Positions 11,173 to 25,705 of a stretch of 38,940 nucleotides of DNA are shown here, one piece after another (positions within the stretch are counted from its first letter, which is position 1; each line of letters opens with the position of its first letter). The notes beneath the pieces were generated by a model. It was not told the DNA's origin. It saw only the letters and a program-made list of their open reading frames with translations, and made no database searches. Made by a program: the position numbers and the translations under genes. Source of the DNA: a virus; IMG/VR virus record IMGVR_UViG_3300036828_000804, positions 1 to 38,940 of that record; one strand, written 5' to 3'.

Positions 11173-11211
11173 GCTTGTCATCAGTCTACCGCACCTCGAC
11201 CGTTTCCACAC
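11173..11211 (-). promoter_or_regulatory. Putative leftward promoter with 13-bp operator
   Basis: Plus strand GCTTGTCATCAGT (11173-11185) matches the repeat at 12 of 13 positions. On the minus strand the -10 box TAGACT (11188-11183) overlaps it and also contains the stop codon of the upstream gene. The -35 is poor. The leader GTTCAGGGAGG follows. Confidence 0.6.
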
Positions 11212-11848
11212 CGTCTTCCGAGGCCAGGATCTCCGCTCGCAGCACCCGCCGGATGGTGCGCTGCGTCTCGGTGTTCACCCCGGCCTGGGCCAGCGCGTTG
11301 TCCAAGGCCCGATCCAGCAGCGCCAGTTCCTTCTCGCGCAGCTGCAGGCCGCGCTGGTCCAGGCCGAGGCGCATCGCCTTCTCGGCGTGCGATCCGGCCA
11401 TGTCCATCGACTTGAGCATCGCGCCGACCTCGCCGCGCACGTGGATGTTGCCGAACGAGTCGAAGTAGGTCAGCTTCTCCTGCTCGGCCAGCTCGGCCTG
11501 CAGCCGTCCGGCCATGGCGCGCGAGATCGCAATCACCCACTGCAGGGTCTCGGCCGGGTTGCCGTACCGCTCGACGATCTCCGTGTCGGTCATCTCGAGG
11601 ACGCTTTTCCGGGCGTTCATGATCGTCTGGCGCTCCACCGTGCGCCGGTCGGCCGCCTCGATCGTCGTCTGCGCCTTGCCGCCGTGCATATGGCACACCG
11701 ACGCGCCGGGCACCGGCCCGTTGGTGCACCGCTCCCCGCTCTGCTTGCTATTCGCAGTGCACTGATGCACCGGAACGGGGCCCAAAAGCTTGGCCATCAC
11801 GTCGTCCAGAGCCCGATACTCTTCCTTCTCGTCCATGTTCGACACCAT
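11186..11848 (-). CDS. Cys/His HGG-motif protein, possibly small-terminase-like
   Basis: Near the N-terminus Cys, Cys, Cys and His lie in CTANSKQSGERC and VCHMHGG, a putative zinc site that phage proteins often carry ahead of a helical body, some of them annotated as small terminase-like. The rest is helical (AGRLQAELAEQEKL, REKELALLDRALDNALAQ). The frame is open to an ATG at 11980, but codons 1-44 of that version use rare low-GC3 codons and contain a GGGTGACGCA repeat and a 17-bp palindrome, so I prefer MVSNMDEKEEY at 11848. Neither start has a clear ribosome site. It faces the repeat region, so DNA binding there is an attractive guess. Confidence 0.6.
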   Translation of the reverse strand: MVSNMDEKEEYRALDDVMAKLLGPVPVHQCTANSKQSGERCTNGPVPGASVCHMHGGKAQTTIEAADRRTVERQTIMNARKSVLEMTDTEIVERYGNPAETLQWVIAISRAMAGRLQAELAEQEKLTYFDSFGNIHVRGEVGAMLKSMDMAGSHAEKAMRLGLDQRGLQLREKELALLDRALDNALAQAGVNTETQRTIRRVLRAEILASEDGVETVEVR

Positions 11849-11883
11849 ACGCACCGCATGATCCCTCGTCCATGGGGGGTCAC

Positions 11884-11900
11884 CAAGATCATGGATCTTG
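11884..11900. repeat. 17-bp perfect palindrome
   Basis: CAAGATC and GATCTTG flank a central ATG. It lies 36 bp upstream of the preferred start of the gene at 11848 and would suit a dimeric repressor. Confidence 0.5.
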
Positions 11901-12171
11901 AAACGGTCGGACAACTCTCTGACCTGCACGGACAACTCAGCACCCCTGGGTGACGCAGAATCGCACACCTCTATCTGCATGCGTCACCCGCTGCGTCACC
12001 CGCTGCGTCACCCACCAGATACGGTGACGCACACGTACGTCACCCGATGACGCGGGAGACGCAGGGTGACGCATATTTTCACAGGTTTTCTGTCACAACC
12101 TATGACGTGGGAGACGACATTCGTCACCGGGTGACGCAGCGGTGACGAAGGCAATTTGGCACCTGACCTGC

Positions 12172-12177
12172 GATAAT
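12172..12177 (+). promoter_or_regulatory. Extended -10 promoter candidate
   Basis: GATAAT preceded by TGC gives an extended -10 box reading rightward. A transcript would start near 12184, run through the large inverted repeat and reach the gene at 12315. No good -35 box is present. Confidence 0.4.
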
Positions 12178-12190
12178 GACAGCACGACGA

Positions 12191-12271
12191 CGGGTGACGC
12201 AGGTTCTATACTCTCTGGATACCTGAAGAGAAAGGGCAGGGGCAGAGAGAGTAGAAAACCTGCGTCACCCG
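12191..12271. repeat. Inverted repeat with 26-bp arms
   Basis: Arms 12191-12216 and 12246-12271 pair over 15 bp (CGGGTGACGCAGGTT with its complement), then 3 mismatches, then 8 bp (TACTCTCT), around a 29-nt centre. Each outer arm contains one GGGTGACGCA copy. It could form a cruciform or an RNA stem-loop in the leader of the gene at 12315. Confidence 0.7.
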
Positions 12272-12302
12272 ATGCCACCGCATCGTTGTCATCGACGTCA
12301 TG

Positions 12303-12318
12303 TAGACTGATGACATGT
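12303..12318 (+). promoter_or_regulatory. -10 box and 13-bp operator over a start codon
   Basis: TAGACT (12303-12308) overlaps ACTGATGACATGT (12306-12318), a 12 of 13 match to the repeat read in reverse. The ATG of the next gene is at 12315, seven bases after the -10 box, as for a leaderless transcript. A partial copy (TTGTCATC) lies at 12286-12293. Confidence 0.55.
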
Positions 12319-12668
12319 ACCGACCGACCAAGTACGAAATCCGGAACCGAGAGGCCCGCGACGCCGCGGTTCTCGCCGCCCTGCAATCCAAGATCACACG
12401 ACCGTGGTGGGGCACGTCCACCGAGCTGCACGCACTGCTCGACGTCCATGCGTCGTTGGGTGCGCAGCCCAGGCCCGTCCCCCGGCAGGGCTTCTCCTGC
12501 TCCCTCGAATCGCTGGAGCGCGGCGAGTTGCGCGAACGCGGCTGGACCGTCCACCGATGGAGGACCGCCAGTGCCCGCCGGATCGGCCTCGTACCGCCTG
12601 GATGGGTGTGGGATGACGAAGCCAGCCTGTGGGTCGTGCACGGCGTCCCGCTGCCCCCGCAGGCGTGA
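12315..12668 (+). CDS. Stand-alone wHTH protein related to the helicase C-terminus (117 aa)
   Basis: The C-terminal two thirds, WWGTSTELHALL ... SLESLERGELRERGWTV ... ARRIGLVPP, follow the same order as the last ~75 residues of the convergent helicase gene (WEGTATELLHYL ... SLSDRIERTSQALGALGW ... KRIIRITPP). Such wHTH domains end many phage primase-helicases and touch origin DNA. A free copy next to the repeat region could be an origin-binding protein, a competitor of the helicase or a repressor. The N-terminus (EIRNREARDAAVLAALQSK) is a helix. Start: no ribosome site, but TAGACT sits 7 nt upstream. Confidence 0.7.
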   Translation: MYRPTKYEIRNREARDAAVLAALQSKITRPWWGTSTELHALLDVHASLGAQPRPVPRQGFSCSLESLERGELRERGWTVHRWRTASARRIGLVPPGWVWDDEASLWVVHGVPLPPQA

Positions 12669-12706: not shown

Positions 12707-12719
12707 ACTTGTCATCAGA
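12707..12719. promoter_or_regulatory. 13-bp operator at a gene end (stoperator-like)
   Basis: ACTTGTCATCAGA matches the repeat at 12 of 13 positions. It abuts the terminator stem and covers the stop codon of the helicase gene. No promoter is expected here, so a bound protein would block elongation rather than initiation. Confidence 0.5.
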
Positions 12720-14127
12720 CGACGGGAGGCGTTATCCGGATGATGCGCTTGCCTCCGTGCAGCCGGGTCTTGTCGATCCGCCAGCCGAGCGCTCCCAGGG
12801 CCTGTGAGGTGCGCTCGATGCGGTCCGACAGCGACCGCGCCGTCCAGTGCGAGCGTCCCTCGTCCTGGAGGTTGCCGTGCATGACGAGGTAGTGCAGCAG
12901 TTCGGTCGCGGTGCCCTCCCAGGTGCCGCGTACGGCTGCCGTCAGGGCCATGGCGACCGTGTCCCCCTCGACGATGTCCTCCAGGGCGTTGAACCGGCCC
13001 ATGCGCCACGAGGCCATGGCGTTGGTGCGCCAGCGCCGGTCGACCAGCGAGACGATCTGCGAGAACCGCGTGAGCCGGTCCGATCCGGCCGGTGACGGCA
13101 GGGACTGCATATCGGCCAGGATCTGCACGGTGCGGTCCAGCAGCCACGCCAGCGCACTCGGATGCGCCAGCGCCCACGTGGCCGCGACCTCGTCGTCCGA
13201 GCGGAACGCGGTCAACCGTGACAGCCTGTGCGCCGCCAGCCGGTCGGCCAGGTCTCCCTGCAGCCCGCCGAGCGTGATCCCGTTCAAGATGATCACGCTT
13301 TGAAACGAGGTCACGAACAGGTCTCCGTCGGTGTACAAGGCCCTGTCCACCCAGCCGTCACCGGATGCCGCCTTGCACAGCGCGTCCGACCACCAGCGCG
13401 AGACGCCGGAGACGTTGTCCATCGCCATCACGTACCGGCCGCCAGCCATGGCCGCCCAGGTGCGCTCGTCCCGCGGCACCGGCTGCATCGCGGGCGAGGC
13501 GTCGATCCAGTTCGAGGTGATCCGGGTCGTACCGGTCTTCGCCGATCCGGGCGGTCCTGAGATGACCTCGATCGGGTGCGTAATGCCCGGGAACAGCGAG
13601 GCGATCCGGCAGGCGACATACAGGGCCCAGTCGTTGTCGTCCACGATGTTGATCAGGTCGCGGACCCTGTCCAGATCCCCCTCCTCCGCTGGCACCGGCA
13701 GCTCGCCGGTCAGCGCAGTGCGGTGGAACAGCACCGGCGGCCGGTTGATCACCCGCCAGTGACCCGGCCGGATCTCGACGGCCTTGCCGTCCGGCCGTCC
13801 AAGGTCCAGGAACACCGAGCCGCTGTGCGAGGCGAGGCGGAGGTTCGGAGTGACCCGGCTGTGCCCCATCGCGGCGCCCTCGGCCAGGTTCAGCACCGTG
13901 GTCAGGGCCTCGTTGTTGGCCGCCCGCCCGGTGTGCCGATACATGTCCGTGGCCAGCCGGATACGGAGTCCTGAGTTGCCGCGCAACGGGATCATGACCG
14001 AGGGCACGTCGTTGCGCACGGCGAATGGCCGTCCGTCAGCTGTGGCCGCCAGGTAGTAGTCCCGCTGCAAGATCCCCATCAGGGTGTCGACCGCGGACGG
14101 CGCCTGCACGGCGGCCGTGCCGGTCAT
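12715..14127 (-). CDS. AAA/SF3-like replicative helicase (470 aa)
   Basis: Walker A GPPGSAKT lies at 191-198, a Walker B-like strand RYVMAMDN at 231-238, a sensor-like VIILNGI at 278-284, and ADRLAAHRLSRL with candidate arginine-finger residues after it. The N-terminal 170 residues read as a beta-rich domain and the last 75 as a winged helix (WEGTATELLHYL onward). This order fits the helicase half of phage primase-helicases of the D5/P4 alpha type; the primase is a separate gene at 15388-16308. The start at 14127 overlaps a 12-codon leader ORF (ATGA). It should unwind DNA at the phage fork. Confidence 0.8.
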   Translation of the reverse strand: MTGTAAVQAPSAVDTLMGILQRDYYLAATADGRPFAVRNDVPSVMIPLRGNSGLRIRLATDMYRHTGRAANNEALTTVLNLAEGAAMGHSRVTPNLRLASHSGSVFLDLGRPDGKAVEIRPGHWRVINRPPVLFHRTALTGELPVPAEEGDLDRVRDLINIVDDNDWALYVACRIASLFPGITHPIEVISGPPGSAKTGTTRITSNWIDASPAMQPVPRDERTWAAMAGGRYVMAMDNVSGVSRWWSDALCKAASGDGWVDRALYTDGDLFVTSFQSVIILNGITLGGLQGDLADRLAAHRLSRLTAFRSDDEVAATWALAHPSALAWLLDRTVQILADMQSLPSPAGSDRLTRFSQIVSLVDRRWRTNAMASWRMGRFNALEDIVEGDTVAMALTAAVRGTWEGTATELLHYLVMHGNLQDEGRSHWTARSLSDRIERTSQALGALGWRIDKTRLHGGKRIIRITPPVV

Positions 14128-14351: not shown

Positions 14352-15335
14352 CTAGTCGACCGCGTCCAACTCGTCACGCAGGTACCGCTCGACCGACTCC
14401 CAGTTCTCCGCCGCCGCGGTCAGCACCGCGCGCTCGCGATCCCCTCGGGCGAGGCGAGCGTCGTACAGCTCGGGCACCAGGTGGCGCCGGATGCTCGTGT
14501 CCACCAGCTCGACCAGGGTCTGCGGCTCCAGGGCGTCCAGCTCCCAGCAGTCGGTGCCGTACAGCTCGACGTATCCGGCGAACCGGCTGTCGGTCTCCTT
14601 GGCGTAGTTGGGCGGCGGGTTGTACGCCCGCACCTGGTCCAGGGTCAGCGCGATCCGGTCCACCGTGCAGTCCGAGCGGAACAGCGACAGCCGCTCCTGG
14701 ATGTCGCGCGGGATATCTATCCCGGTCGGGTCGTGGTCTCCCAGGTAGAGGATCGTGGTCTTGCGACCGTTCCGCTCGTACGCGCGCAGCCGCTGCGCCG
14801 CGTCGTGCACGAGGGAGTGCGACGGGCTGCCCTTGCATGCGGTGTAGCCGACGTTCAGCGGGCCCGCGGCGCGGGCGATGACGTCGACCAGCGCGTCCTT
14901 CTCCACCCACACCTCGACGTGCTCGGGCTGGCCGTCCCAGTGCGTGATGTCGTACTGGTTGGCCACGGCGTCCAGCGCGCTGGCCGGGGAGTCGAACCCG
15001 TAGTCGCCGCCAGCCGATTCCCGGCCGCGGTCCTCGATGTGCGACCAGTCGATCAGACCGGCTACGCGTGCGTCCGCGATCAGCGATCCCAGCCACTTGT
15101 AGTTGGCCTGGCAGTTCTTGGTGCCCTGCCCGCTGGTGTTGCCCGGGTCGCGCCGGTCGCCGGTGAAGTACCGGCTGTCCGGGAACGCGTCGGTGGCGAT
15201 GAACCGGTAGTAGAGCTGACGCAGCGTCAGGCGGTAGCCCTCCGCGGCGTACTGCTGGCAGATCGCGTCCGCGGCCTGCACGACGGCCCGTCCGGCCTCG
15301 CTGAACGTCCGGCCCTCATATCTGATCTTGCTCAT
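14352..15335 (-). CDS. Spo11/Top6A-like Toprim protein (327 aa)
   Basis: The N-terminal domain holds YRLTLRQLYYRFIAT (34-48), where the Tyr pair at 42-43 corresponds in pattern to the catalytic tyrosine motif of Spo11 and topoisomerase VI A. The next helices (KWLGSLIADARVAGLIDW) continue that resemblance. A Toprim domain follows with VWVEKDAL (Glu145) and ILYLGDHDPTGIDI (Asp200, Asp202). Top6A cuts both strands and needs a GHKL ATPase B subunit; none is seen here. Free-standing A-like proteins (Mini-A) are known from mobile elements. It lies between helicase and primase, so a role in replication or recombination start is likely. The start follows GTTCAGGGAGGAGC. Confidence 0.75.
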   Translation of the reverse strand: MSKIRYEGRTFSEAGRAVVQAADAICQQYAAEGYRLTLRQLYYRFIATDAFPDSRYFTGDRRDPGNTSGQGTKNCQANYKWLGSLIADARVAGLIDWSHIEDRGRESAGGDYGFDSPASALDAVANQYDITHWDGQPEHVEVWVEKDALVDVIARAAGPLNVGYTACKGSPSHSLVHDAAQRLRAYERNGRKTTILYLGDHDPTGIDIPRDIQERLSLFRSDCTVDRIALTLDQVRAYNPPPNYAKETDSRFAGYVELYGTDCWELDALEPQTLVELVDTSIRRHLVPELYDARLARGDRERAVLTAAAENWESVERYLRDELDAVD

Positions 15336-15359: not shown

Positions 15360-15398
15360 ACTGATGACAAGTTAGCACGGCGCGCGGTCATCTGCCAT
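15360..15398 (-). promoter_or_regulatory. Leftward promoter with exact 13-bp operator
   Basis: Plus strand 15360-15372 is the exact complement of ACTTGTCATCAGT. On the minus strand CTAACT (15375-15370) overlaps it as the -10 box, with ATGGCA 17 bp upstream as a fair -35. It would drive the Toprim gene; the -35 lies in the 3' end of the primase gene. Confidence 0.65.
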
Positions 15399-16308
15399 GG
15401 CCTCTGAGCCATGCGTCGCGCTGGGCGCGTTCCTTCTGCTTCTGCCCGTCGATGAACTTGCGGGCCGACTCGTTGATCGTCATGACCTCGCGCCAGGGCA
15501 TGCCCATCTGGTCCCCGGCCAGCCAGATGACCATCAGCTCCTCGAGCACGTCGTCGGCGGTCATCTTGCGGTGCAGTGCGCACGCCGCCCGGTACATCTC
15601 CCGGTTGCGGGTGCCGACCTGTGCCCCATGTGTCTTCAGCTCCTCGAGGTCTACGTCCTCATCCGATCCGTTGCCGCCGCCGGATCCGGGCCCGGGGCCC
15701 GCCGAGGCGATCCACTGCAACACCCATGGCGGCGCGTCCCCGGCGTCGCAGAAGCACCCACCGGTCCACCGGTACGGTACCGGCACGGACTCTCCGCTAC
15801 GCGACGCGACCAGCGCCGAGGAAGGCGGGGCCACCACGAGGTTGCCGTCTCCCAGGACGTCCACGCCGGGCAGGATGCCGGGCCGCGCCGGTACGCGCAC
15901 GCCGCGCTCGGTGCGCAGCCACAGGTGCACGCCGCCGGACGGGGTCGCGGCCACGGACGCGCCGGGCAGCCCGTATCCGCGCTCCCGCATGAAGGTCCAC
16001 AGCTCGCCCGGCCCGTTGTGCCCGTTCTTCACGTCCAGATCCAGCACGACCAGGCGGGACGGCGACCCGCACGCCACACCCAGGTTCGCGGCCTTGTCCT
16101 GTGACCAGCACCACTTTGCGGCCTTGGCGTCCTTCGACGCCCAGTGCACGCCGCCTGAGTCCCCGAGCATCCGGTGCGGCCTCTTACGGCCGCGGGCCAG
16201 CGGCAGCACCGCGAACCCCTGCCCCTGGTAGCGCAGCGCGGCGGCGCCGATCCCGAGCGCGCGCACGACGGAGTCGGCCGAGTCGAAATCTTGATGTTGA
16301 CAATCCAT
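15388..16308 (-). CDS. AEP primase-polymerase (prim-pol), 306 aa
   Basis: The N-terminal ~200 residues carry the prim-pol signature: GFAVLPLARGRKRPH, the metal-binding strand LVVLDLDVKNG (Asp90, Asp92), the SGGVHLWL motif with His128, and a GNLVVAPPS strand. A Gly/Ser/Asp-rich linker leads to a helical PriCT-like tail (THGAQVGTRNREMYRAAC onward). Such enzymes synthesise primers and can extend them. The partner helicase is encoded separately at 12715. The ATG at 16308 (MDCQHQDF) is preferred because GGGAGGAA lies just upstream; an in-frame ATG at 16353 would precede it inside the promoter. Confidence 0.85.
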   Translation of the reverse strand: MDCQHQDFDSADSVVRALGIGAAALRYQGQGFAVLPLARGRKRPHRMLGDSGGVHWASKDAKAAKWCWSQDKAANLGVACGSPSRLVVLDLDVKNGHNGPGELWTFMRERGYGLPGASVAATPSGGVHLWLRTERGVRVPARPGILPGVDVLGDGNLVVAPPSSALVASRSGESVPVPYRWTGGCFCDAGDAPPWVLQWIASAGPGPGSGGGNGSDEDVDLEELKTHGAQVGTRNREMYRAACALHRKMTADDVLEELMVIWLAGDQMGMPWREVMTINESARKFIDGQKQKERAQRDAWLRGHGR

Positions 16309-16319
16309 GTGTTCCTCCC

Positions 16320-16364
16320 TGACCTTTGCCCGGATTCTACTGTAGAGTGTCACTGATGACTAGT
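16320..16364. promoter_or_regulatory. Divergent promoters with shared 13-bp operator
   Basis: Rightward: TAGAGT (16343-16348), then ACTGATGACTAGT (16352-16364), a 12 of 13 match; the -35 is weak. Leftward: TAGAAT (16339-16334) with TAGTCA 17 bp upstream, inside the same operator. One bound protein could shut both the primase gene and the polymerase operon. Confidence 0.6.
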
Positions 16365-17384: not shown

Positions 17385-19172
17385 GTGGCCGGGGGCGTGC
17401 TGGACGGGGTGACCCTGCGCACCATCACCTCGATCGACGAGCTGGCCGAGTGCAAGCGCTGGGCCGGTGAGCGCCGTGAGGGCATCCTCGCCTTCGACAC
17501 TGAATCAGCAGGCTTATCCCCGTACCGGGACGAGTGCCGCCTGATCCAGATCGGCGACATGCGCACCGGATGGGCCGCACCGGCGAAGCTGTGGGGCGGC
17601 GGGATCCTGGAGATCCTGCGCGATTACCAGGGCGACCTGGGCGCGCACCAAATGGGCTACGACCACCGGGTGATCTACCAGTTCAGCGGATTGAAGCTGA
17701 ACTGGGCGAAGATCCACGACACGCTGATGAGCTGCCACCTGCACGACTCGATCATGCCGCACGGGCTGAAGGCCGCCGGATCGCGCATGGTAGACCCGCG
17801 CGCCATGGAGGGCGAGCGGATCCTGCAGGAGGCGATGGCCGCCAACCACTGGACGTGGGCGACGGTGCCGATCGACTACCCGGGGTACACCGCGTACGCC
17901 GCGCTGGACCCGGTGCTCACGGCGCATCTGTGGCACAAGACCGGCCCGGCCGCGATGGGCTCGTTCCGGGAGGCATACGACCTCGAGCGCGCCACCGCGC
18001 GGATTGCGGCGGCGATGATGGACGCCGGGATGCTGCTCGACGTGCCGTACATCGAGCGGCAGATCGAGCATCTGGAGGCGTGGGAGCGCGGGGCCATGGC
18101 GTGGCTGCACGAGCAGTTCGGCATGACCTCGGTCAACTCGGCCGCGCAGGTCGAGCGCGTGCTCGCCAAGCTCGGCATCCCCGTGATGATGTTCACCAAG
18201 ACCGGGCAGGCGTCGATCGACAAGGACACGCTTCGGGTCTACGCCACCGCGTACCCGCAGCACCGCCAGGTGATCGAGACGATCTCCTACGCCCGCAAGA
18301 CGTACAAGATCGTGAACACGCACCTGCGCAAGTTCCTCGCGCTGCGCGACGCAGACGACGTGATCCACGCCTCGATCAACACCTGCCAGGCGCGCACGTC
18401 CCGGCAGTCCGTGACGGACCCGCCGATGCAGACCTTCGACCGGGACGTGCCGATGATCAGAGGCGCGTACCGGCCGCGGCCGGGCAACGCGTTCGTGACG
18501 GTCGACGCCGACCAGATCGAGGCGCGCATCACCGCGCACTTCTCCGAGGACCGGGGCATGATCGAGATGTTCCGCCAGGCCGAGGAGACCGGGATCGACT
18601 TCTTCCGGCTGATGGCGGGCCGGATCTACCAGGACGATCCGGAGAAGATCGCCAAGAGCGACATCCGGCGCCAGCTGACCAAGAACTCCACCTACGCGCG
18701 GATCTACGGCTCCGGCCTGGACCGGATGGCCCTGACCGCCGGTGTGCCGGTCGAGCAGGCAGCCCCGGTCTACCACGCGTTCGGCCAGATGTATCCGGGC
18801 CCTGACAGGCTCATGCACCAGATCACCCAGCGGTGCCGGGCTGAGGAGCGCGCCGGGCGCCGCGGGTTCGTCACCACGCCTACCGGCCGTGTCCTGTTCA
18901 CCGACCGCAACCGCGGATACGCGGGCCTGAACTACAAGGTGCAGGGGCATTCCGCCGAGATATTGAAGAAGGGCGTGATCGACCTCGACGCGGCCGGACT
19001 CACCCCGTATCTGCGCCTGACGATTCACGATGAGGTACTCGGAGAATTCCCGAAGGACACCGCCAAGGAAGCCCTGGCCGAGATGTCGAGGATTCTCACC
19101 GACCGCACGACGTATGCCGTTCCCATCACCTGGGACGGAAAGGTTCTATCGGAGAGGTGGGTGAAAGGATAA
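17385..19172 (+). CDS. Family A DNA polymerase with 3'-5' exonuclease (595 aa)
   Basis: Exonuclease motifs: LAFDTES (Asp38, Glu40), GYDHRVI (Asp93) and YAALD (Tyr171, Asp175). Polymerase motifs: A, VTVDADQIEARITAHFSED with Asp374 or 376; B, RRQLTKNSTYARIYGSG with Arg429, Lys433, Tyr437, Tyr441, Gly442; C, LTIHDEV with His548, Asp549, Glu550. Tyr437 stands where E. coli Pol I has Phe762 and T7 polymerase has Tyr, so ready ddNTP use is expected. There is no 5' nuclease domain. It is the phage replicative polymerase. The GTG start has no other good candidate nearby and follows directly on the previous stop. Confidence 0.92.
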   Translation: MAGGVLDGVTLRTITSIDELAECKRWAGERREGILAFDTESAGLSPYRDECRLIQIGDMRTGWAAPAKLWGGGILEILRDYQGDLGAHQMGYDHRVIYQFSGLKLNWAKIHDTLMSCHLHDSIMPHGLKAAGSRMVDPRAMEGERILQEAMAANHWTWATVPIDYPGYTAYAALDPVLTAHLWHKTGPAAMGSFREAYDLERATARIAAAMMDAGMLLDVPYIERQIEHLEAWERGAMAWLHEQFGMTSVNSAAQVERVLAKLGIPVMMFTKTGQASIDKDTLRVYATAYPQHRQVIETISYARKTYKIVNTHLRKFLALRDADDVIHASINTCQARTSRQSVTDPPMQTFDRDVPMIRGAYRPRPGNAFVTVDADQIEARITAHFSEDRGMIEMFRQAEETGIDFFRLMAGRIYQDDPEKIAKSDIRRQLTKNSTYARIYGSGLDRMALTAGVPVEQAAPVYHAFGQMYPGPDRLMHQITQRCRAEERAGRRGFVTTPTGRVLFTDRNRGYAGLNYKVQGHSAEILKKGVIDLDAAGLTPYLRLTIHDEVLGEFPKDTAKEALAEMSRILTDRTTYAVPITWDGKVLSERWVKG

Positions 19173-23830: not shown

Positions 23831-24594
23831 CCGTGACGCAGCCCTACCAGCCCGCTCCGACGCCCGCCGCGCTCCGACGCCAGAGCCAGGGCCTGTCGTT
23901 CCTGATCCACGGTCTGCCGAAGGCCGGTAAGTCGACCTTCGCCGACTCCGGCCCGGCGCCCCGCTTCACCCTCGACGTCGAGGGGTCCTCGTTCTGGACC
24001 CCGTCCCGGAAGATCTACTGGGATCCGATGCGCGAGCCCGTGCCACGGCCCGACGGAACCTGGGACACCGCTACCGTGCTGGTGCGCGAGGCGCGCACCG
24101 TCATGGAGGTCTACCGGATCCTGAACTCCGGGCAGCACCCGTTCAACTCCGGCTCGATGGACTCGGTCACCGAGGTGCAGCAGCGAATCATCGACGACCT
24201 GACCCGCGGCCAGCAGATGGACCGGGACAAGTGGGGCGCGCTGCTCCGCCAGGTGAATGCGATGGTCCGCGCGTACCGGGACCTGATCACGCACCCGATC
24301 CGGCCGCTGTGGACGATGACCTTCGTGGCCGGGTCGCAGCAGAAGGAAGGCCGCTGGCGCCCCATGCTCCAAGGCCAGGCGCAGGACTACCTGCCCTACT
24401 ACGTGGACGTGCTCGGCTATCTCAACGCGCAGCCCAACGGCCTGCGCCAGATGCTGATCGGGCCCAATCCGCAGTTCGAGACCGGCGAGCGCCTGGGTGG
24501 GCGCCTGCCGTACGTCATGCAGATCGGGGACGCATCACACCCCGGATACACCGCCGAGACCATGCTCACGCAGGTTCTCCAGGGAAGGAAGTAA
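23827..24594 (+). CDS. Sak4-like RecA-fold ATPase (255 aa)
   Basis: Walker A LIHGLPKAGKST (27-37) begins a RecA-type core; VLVREARTVMEVYRIL and MDSVTEVQQRIIDDL follow in the manner of phage AAA_24/Sak4 recombinases, and WTMTFVAGSQQ is the later core strand. Sak4 proteins assist single-strand annealing and are usually encoded beside an SSB, as here. The ATG at 23827 overlaps the previous stop; the 23809 ATG is inside that gene. Confidence 0.78.
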   Translation: MTVTQPYQPAPTPAALRRQSQGLSFLIHGLPKAGKSTFADSGPAPRFTLDVEGSSFWTPSRKIYWDPMREPVPRPDGTWDTATVLVREARTVMEVYRILNSGQHPFNSGSMDSVTEVQQRIIDDLTRGQQMDRDKWGALLRQVNAMVRAYRDLITHPIRPLWTMTFVAGSQQKEGRWRPMLQGQAQDYLPYYVDVLGYLNAQPNGLRQMLIGPNPQFETGERLGGRLPYVMQIGDASHPGYTAETMLTQVLQGRK

Positions 24595-24601
24595 CTTACT
24601 C

Positions 24602-25705
24602 ATGGGTCAGTACGATTTCGGTGCCCTGTACGGGCAGGCCGACGCCTCGATCTTCGTCTACGAGCCTGGCTTGGTCGACGCCGTGGTGGAGGCGAGCACG
24701 TGGGGCCGTACCAAGGACGGTAGCAAGGGCCAGTGGGATGTCAGGTTCCGCGTGACGACCGGCCAGGACGCCGGGCGCGCGCAGATCAAGTTCCCGATGA
24801 CCGTGACCACGGAAGGCGCGAGCGCCGCGCAGTCGCTCGGGATCATGTTCCGGCACCTGGAGAGCATGGGGGTTCCGTCGGAGTGGGTGCGGACCAACCC
24901 GCCGGAAGAGCAGATCGCCCAGGCCATGGTCGGCAAGCCGGTCCAGCTCAAGATCATCGTGGACGAGTATGAGGGCGTGCAGCGCAACAAGGTGCGCGAC
25001 GTGCGCCCGCCGCGCCCGGGCGCCCCGACGACCTGGCCGCAGTACCAGCCGCAGATGGCCGCCACGCCGCAGTACGGCCAGGCGCAGTACGGCCAGCCCG
25101 CCTATCCCGGCGGCGTGGACCCGTGGCAGACCCCCGCCCCGGCGCAGCCGCAGCCGCAGTACGGCGGCCAGATCGCGCCGCAAGCGTACGGCCAGCCGCA
25201 GGCACCGGCTCCGATGTATCCCGGGCAGCCGACGTTCCAGCAGCCCGGCCAGGCGCCGCAGCCTTACGCCGGGCAGCCGCAGCAGGCACCGGCGCCGCAG
25301 CAGCCGCAGTCCGCTCCGCCGTGGGCGCAGCCCGGCCAGACCCAGCAGCAGTACGAGCAGCAGTCGCAGGCGCCGCAGCAGCAGGCCCCGCAGTTCCCGG
25401 GCACGGCGCCGTACGCGCCGCCGCAGGCGCCGCAGCAGGCCGACCCGTGGGCGACCCAGGCGCCGACCGCCCAGGCGAACGGAGCCGACCCGTCGGCGCC
25501 CCCGTGGGCGCAGCCGGGCGCTCAGCAGGCCGCCCAGCAGCAGCCCCCGTGGGCCCAGCAGCAGCCCCCGCAGGCGCCCCAGGCGCCCTTCACTCCGCCC
25601 GCCCCGTCCCAGGCGCCCGCTGCGCCGTGGAACGGCCAGCAGGCGCCGCAGACCGACCAGCAGACCGGACCGCAGGGCGCACCGCCCCCGCCCTGGGCTC
25701 AGTAA
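24602..25705 (+). CDS. SSB-like protein with long PQ-rich tail (367 aa)
   Basis: Residues 1-135 look like an OB-type domain (VVEASTWGRTKDGSKGQWDV, RAQIKFPMTVTT, VQLKIIVDEYEG), as in the DUF669-like single-strand-binding family found next to Sak4. The remaining ~230 residues are low-complexity Pro, Gln and Ala with Tyr and Trp. The motif PPWAQ recurs four times, the last copy at the C-terminus (PPPPWAQ), where bacterial SSB carries its DDDIPF partner-binding tip. The tail is therefore likely an interaction hub. A strong terminator follows. Confidence 0.72.
   Translation: MGQYDFGALYGQADASIFVYEPGLVDAVVEASTWGRTKDGSKGQWDVRFRVTTGQDAGRAQIKFPMTVTTEGASAAQSLGIMFRHLESMGVPSEWVRTNPPEEQIAQAMVGKPVQLKIIVDEYEGVQRNKVRDVRPPRPGAPTTWPQYQPQMAATPQYGQAQYGQPAYPGGVDPWQTPAPAQPQPQYGGQIAPQAYGQPQAPAPMYPGQPTFQQPGQAPQPYAGQPQQAPAPQQPQSAPPWAQPGQTQQQYEQQSQAPQQQAPQFPGTAPYAPPQAPQQADPWATQAPTAQANGADPSAPPWAQPGAQQAAQQQPPWAQQQPPQAPQAPFTPPAPSQAPAAPWNGQQAPQTDQQTGPQGAPPPPWAQ

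Follow-up and report, generated by a model that had tools for sequence, protein, structure and literature searches.

The stretch of viral DNA analysed here (the window, an IMG/VR virus record of 38,940 bp) contains a replication-gene neighbourhood that runs leftward in the order Prim-Pol, topoisomerase-like protein, AAA+ helicase, repeat array and HGG/Zn-motif protein. The first gene (15388-16353, minus strand) encodes a Prim-Pol primase/polymerase (PF09250, E 4.6e-26), and the next (14352-15335, minus strand) encodes a topoisomerase-like protein of phrog_6247, homologues of which occur in phages of many hosts. The third (12715-14127, minus strand) encodes a Rep/PriRep-like AAA+ (SF3-type) initiator helicase with a C-terminal winged helix (12718-12996, minus strand), a putative origin-binding domain. 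The array sits behind the 3′ end of the helicase gene and is bounded on its other flank by the HGG/Zn-motif gene (11186-11848, minus strand), the position of which is conserved in four relatives. Between the AAA+ gene and the array, a small gene (12315-12668, plus strand) runs the opposite way and encodes a free-standing protein of 117 residues; the array is located between two diverging genes. Elsewhere, the window encodes the PolA-type polymerase of the phage (17385-19172) and a protein with a long proline/glutamine-rich tail (24497-25705), which arises from repetitive coding sequence.

The sequence-only reading had described the interval 11849-12314 as an iteron-like control region with eight exact copies of GGGTGACGCA, and all eight were recovered, with none, on either strand, in the rest of the 38,940 bp. 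The array (11948-12270) comprises these exact copies and five near-copies (two mismatches at most) of TGCGTCACCC/GGGTGACGCA in both orientations. Exact copies start at 11948, 12064, 12129 and 12192 on the plus strand and at 11980, 11992, 12004 and 12261 on the minus strand. Those at 11980, 11992 and 12004 are in direct orientation with the exact 12-bp spacing that had been reported (11980-12013, minus strand), and the five near-copies are interspersed among the exact ones at 12022, 12036 and 12054 (one mismatch) and at 12120 and 12140 (two mismatches). In 2,000 first-order Markov simulations of the region, the mean number of copies was 0.004 and the maximum 1, and the pattern read backwards, which served as a control, occurred 0 times. 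A whole-window tally that allowed up to two mismatches gave 60 occurrences against about 80 expected, which is no enrichment; the signal of the array is the local clustering of exact copies.

Three further features lie within or beside the array. The AT-rich patch of the sequence-only reading was found at 12069-12105 and is a putative unwinding element: the lowest-GC 30-mer of the region begins at 12073 (33% GC), a second one begins at 12204, and of all 200-bp stretches in the window, the one with the lowest GC content begins at 12067. Moreover, the inverted iterons at 12192 and 12261 enclose an AT- and purine-rich core and form a long imperfect inverted repeat (12191-12271), with a predicted DNA fold of -28.2 kcal/mol (z -9.6). 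Counterparts of this dyad were found in the Streptomyces plasmid pFP11 (z -11.1), in a 342-kb Actinacidiphila plasmid (L312, z -7.9) and, more weakly, in the related phage G002 (z -4.3). The dyad was not significant in the related phages G001, G003 and G004 or in one plasmid and is therefore not universal. Finally, TGACCTGC appears to be a second conserved origin element, with one copy at 12164-12171 (plus strand) and another close to the start of the HGG/Zn gene at 11920-11927 (plus strand). It is present, on either strand, in 27 of 30 origins of the family, a count that is inflated by kinship, against a shuffle mean of 0.7 and a maximum of 4. Among the 10 most diverse origins, 7 have it. Rfam and simple promoter and terminator scans returned nothing, and the GC-skew check that had been proposed for locating the origin was uninformative, with no clear origin signal in the GC or AT skew.

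To place the helicase, we predicted its structure. A first prediction from five sequences was poor (pLDDT 51) and was replaced by one based on an alignment of 23 sequences (pLDDT 76, pTM 0.69). The predicted fold is that of a primase-helicase with a C-terminal winged helix. Its top structural match is the SaPI5 primase-helicase (7ola, Z 14.9), followed by African swine fever virus (ASFV) PrimPol, poxvirus D5/E5 (Z about 13 for D5/E5), PriRep1, NrS-1, SCCmec Cch and SaPIbov1 Rep; the top matches have a large rmsd and differ in domain orientation. At the sequence level, the helicase matched no Pfam family at E 0.001, including D5_N, Pox_D5 and VapE, and a sequence-profile search against structures gave no PriRep/D5 match. 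The helicase is thus related in fold and is not a sequence-level member of the D5 or VapE Pfam families. A protein scan of GTDB genomes revealed no prophage with a close helicase, and among annotated phage records, Microbacterium phage Zeta1847 is the sole one with a relative of the helicase of this group of roughly 70-kb soil phages.

A protein search with the helicase identified five viral contigs, four of them distinct (L009 repeats L010), with helicases that are 72-74% identical: G001 (L010, 71.9 kb), G002 (L011, 72.9 kb), G003 (L012, 68.8 kb) and G004 (L013, 74.6 kb). G001, G002 and G004 carry exact direct repeats at their ends (123, 127 and 99 bases, respectively), which suggests that these are complete genomes assembled as circles. 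In each of the four, a non-coding repeat cluster is located between helicase stop and HGG/Zn start, which answers the earlier concern that the region might be coding in relatives. The search for the repeat in related phages that had been proposed thus found clusters at the same place, with the core kept and the rest of the repeat different: TGCGTCCGCA in G001, CGTCACC in G002, GTGCGTCAGC in G003 and GTRCGTCR in G004, compared with TGCGTCACCC in the window. A GCGTC core or a close variant of it is common to all, and retention of this core with divergence of the remainder is as would be expected if initiator and iterons had changed together. The lowest-GC 200-bp window coincides with the array region in four of the five records. 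A tie between the array and the HGG/Zn gene was considered and rejected, as the other phages that carry relatives of that gene (L014-L022) show no array of this kind.

The sequence-only reading had not recognized the repeat from described phages, and a nucleotide search of an annotated phage collection indeed gave no match; a literature search with the repeat string returned only unrelated papers among the matches listed. The repeat is not without precedent, however, because close repeats occur in Streptomyces plasmids and integrated elements. These were reached from two directions. A blind, repeat-first scan for three copies of TGCGTCAC in viral and GTDB contigs returned both coding repeats with 3-bp periodicity and arrays with both orientations. 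At 22 of the loci, the array adjoins a homologue of the window helicase, mainly in Streptomyces chromosomes (21 loci from genomes and 1 from a viral contig, with one weaker case included). In most of the 22, the array begins about 180 bp behind the helicase stop codon, and in the loci inspected, Prim-Pol precedes the Rep homologue and excisionase/integrase genes follow. An IMG/VR ‘viral’ contig (L056:968-1176) carries the same module of Prim-Pol, Rep and array as the Streptomyces integrated elements and is possibly not a phage but an integrative element.

In the opposite direction, a protein-first search with a Streptomyces helicase homologue as the query, in which the repeat was not used, matched 28 plasmid records. 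Arrays were found behind the plasmid Rep gene in L310 and L312 (TGCGTCACC), in L311 (TGCGTCCCCC), in L314 (TGCGTCCC) and in pFP11 (L309), where the repeats are GTGCGTCCCT (the array is also given as TGCGTCCC). The other five plasmid records examined had no recognizable array within 1 kb behind Rep. Rep homologues with no array within 1 kb behind the gene come from Methylobacterium, Methanothrix, Stanieria and one linear Streptomyces plasmid, so that the presence of Rep is not always a sign of iterons. The order Prim-Pol, Rep helicase and iteron array accordingly recurs in four related phages, some 20 integrated elements of Streptomyces and several plasmids from the same genus, pFP11 among them. 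On the sequences compared, the arrays of this family agree in a (T)GCGTC-type core, and the second half of the repeat varies.

The closest described system is pFP11, a Streptomyces theta plasmid. The helicase of the window is homologous to the pFP11 protein along its length (tblastn E 1e-57, 97% coverage, 33.5% identity), and the C-terminal domains of the two Rep proteins align with an hhalign probability of 93.8%. In pFP11, as in the window, Prim-Pol lies upstream of Rep in the same direction, TGCGTC-core iterons follow Rep, and TGACCTGC and a dyad between inverted iterons are present. The basic replication locus of pFP11 consists of rep and iterons, and RepA binds the iterons (Zhang et al. 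2008, as cited in PMC3583192); the same secondary account gives its replication as bidirectional (PMC3583192, citing Zhang 2008). The RepA of that account is presumably the homologue found here, given its homology and position and since no other rep gene is annotated. By contrast, pFP11 is a plasmid and the window belongs to a tailed phage, the second half of the iteron is CCC in pFP11 and ACCC in the phage, the topoisomerase-like gene between Prim-Pol and Rep is a feature of the phage, and no free winged-helix copy was recognized at the pFP11 array. Actinomycetes also harbour Prim-Pol/RepPP integrating elements, known as AICEs, which include SLP1, with SCO4617/SCO4618 (PMC3218068). Prim-Pol, a Rep homologue and a TGCGTCACC array recur together in about 20 Streptomyces chromosomes, and SLP1 is likened to them by description; unlike in the phage, the module continues with an excisionase and a tyrosine integrase.

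More distant parallels come from other primase-helicases. In SaPI Rep and SCCmec Cch2, the C-terminal domain recognizes a short-repeat origin directly downstream of its own gene (PMC7581432). SaPI Rep/PriRep and SCCmec Cch/Cch2 are the best structural matches of the window helicase and share with it the short repeats behind the helicase gene, but there is no significant sequence match to their structures and their iterons are different (AAGTG for Cch2). Phage P4 alpha is likewise a primase-helicase whose winged helix binds repeats at the origin (PMC4234260); unlike the window phage, it carries a Toprim primase.

The small gene beside the array proved to be related to the initiator itself. The sequence-only reading had listed a free winged-helix protein, the helicase and a helical Zn-motif protein as flanking genes; all three are present, but the 12315 product is not an unrelated neighbour, being homologous to the C-terminal domain of the helicase. 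Profile alignment of the small proteins (three sequences) with the last 93 residues of the five helicases gave an hhalign probability of 96.4% (E 1.4e-9). In the five genomes, an HMM of the small proteins matched only the small proteins and the five Rep C termini, and the reverse search agreed. A peptide-pattern search of viral contigs with the small protein as the query found none, though the array has a homologue beside it in both L012 and L013. The small gene separates the array from Rep in the window, G003 and G004, and ‘directly behind’ applies only loosely to these. Two of the five phages, G001 and G002, have no small protein, and both keep the array at the same place. The small protein therefore cannot be the sole array-binding protein, and it is probably a regulator rather than the initiator. 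A functional parallel to the 12315 protein is Cnr, the small regulator of phage P4; P4-type control is characterized by a small winged-helix protein related to the origin-binding domain of the initiator, by contact between the two and by negative control of initiation. The free copy of the initiator’s DNA-binding domain is the distinctive feature of this replicon.

Taken together, these observations argue strongly that the array is the replication origin of the phage, of the Rep/PriRep type in which the origin lies directly behind the gene of its initiator. The case for this phage is built from sequence: the array, its position behind a Rep/PriRep-type helicase, the same layout in four related phages, the predicted fold, and the homology between the small protein and the Rep C terminus. 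Further support for the origin that the sequence-only reading had offered comes from the presence of this module in integrated elements of Streptomyces and in plasmids of the pFP11 type, as far as the latter are described in the account cited above. Binding of iterons by Rep is published for pFP11 and, by analogy with such relatives, would hold for this phage. The C-terminal winged helix of the helicase (12715-14127) would bind the TGCGTCACCC iterons. We infer the subsequent steps as follows. Multiple iterons in both orientations would nucleate Rep hexamers, and ATP-driven distortion would open the AT-rich patch, the purine-rich dyad core (12192/12261) or both. Prim-Pol (15388-16353) would then prime, and the PolA-type polymerase (17385-19172) would extend. 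The 12315 protein would limit initiation and probably tunes it, either by competing for iterons or by forming heterodimers with Rep.

The arrangement of the array between diverging genes, beside a free-standing homologue of the Rep DNA-binding domain, raises the possibility that the iterons double as operators, with Rep, the small protein or both tuning initiation and local transcription in an autoregulated manner. Such control is common in iteron plasmids. We give this dual role somewhat less than an even chance, as the small protein is not universal; it includes the origin explanation and does not exclude it. The same arrangement, with a DNA-binding-domain protein encoded alongside, could instead reflect a multi-operator switch, in which the 12315 protein binds the repeats to repress both the leftward HGG/Zn gene and the gene that encodes it, and replication starts elsewhere. 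This is unlikely, because G001 and G002 lack the small protein yet keep arrays at the same place, and the array also follows Rep in the Streptomyces elements and plasmids, where this divergent gene pair is absent. A simple scan also found no sigma-70-like promoter, although actinophage promoters may differ.

A partition or incompatibility site is very improbable: short-repeat arrays are typical of centromere-like par sites, and related plasmids carry ParA genes beyond the array, but none of the genes near the array in the window was seen to encode ParA, the array follows Rep in all array-bearing relatives, and the inspected Streptomyces integrated elements continue with excisionase/integrase genes. 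A packaging or recombination site, or a functionless repeat expansion, accounts only for the presence of repeats and a dyad and is scarcely credible given the conserved position despite diverged repeats, the extra TGACCTGC element and the association with Rep.

The scan for TGCGTCAC also returned arrays in unrelated phages and elements that carry other helicase families. These lie close behind VapE-like genes (L049:4153-4426, L068:8184-8477 and L140:8303-8725), D5-like genes (L046:8834-8976, L091:3511-3702, L115:4430-4599, L133:5644-6003 and L150:6549-6837) and a DUF927 gene (L238:3054-3302), and at the 3′ end of AAA_25 genes (L060:1022-1244, L073:6879-6947 and L131). Comparison of the C-terminal domains of the different families by hhalign, with shallow profiles, detected no homology, and a binding domain shared across them is therefore unsupported. 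Viral TGCGTCAC arrays lacking 3-bp periodicity were near a primase-helicase gene in 17 of 57 cases, as against 0 of 12 and 2 of 18 for two other 8-mers of the same composition (pooled p about 0.014), in a small test that is biased because the query proteins were partly picked from the array set. For arrays in both orientations, the corresponding counts, subject to the same bias, were 23 of 112 against 0 of 27 and 2 of 103. A preference of TGCGTCAC arrays for primase-helicase genes across families is thus partly supported. Repeats of the control pattern CGTTCAGC lie beside the 3′ end of AAA_25-type helicase genes in L353 (6111-6163) and L365 (8688-8740), and are probably another iteron origin.

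The kind of replicon described here is already known; the free winged-helix copy and the recurring TGCGTCAC arrays are the interesting leads. The joint proposal that the origin-binding domain of the initiator also exists as a separate protein beside the origin, as a built-in competitor for iterons or co-loader, and that TGCGTCAC arrays recur directly behind several primase-helicase families with no detectable C-terminal homology, in phages and elements of various bacteria, is doubtful as it stands. If true, the recurrence would imply either that a single origin word has been adopted convergently or is of very ancient use, or that TGCGTCAC is recognized by a host factor common to these systems. 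To our knowledge, the origins of Prim-Pol/helicase replicons are rarely annotated, and GCGTC repeats behind a Rep gene offer a usable rule for finding more of them. For these soil phages of roughly 70 kb, a formerly unannotated repeat cluster very probably becomes a concrete origin whose initiator can be named; should the small protein prove to be a regulator derived from the initiator’s own DNA-binding domain, it would provide compact control of initiation. One origin design, with iterons, TGACCTGC and, in some, a dyad, would link the replicons of actinobacterial phages, plasmids and integrated elements.
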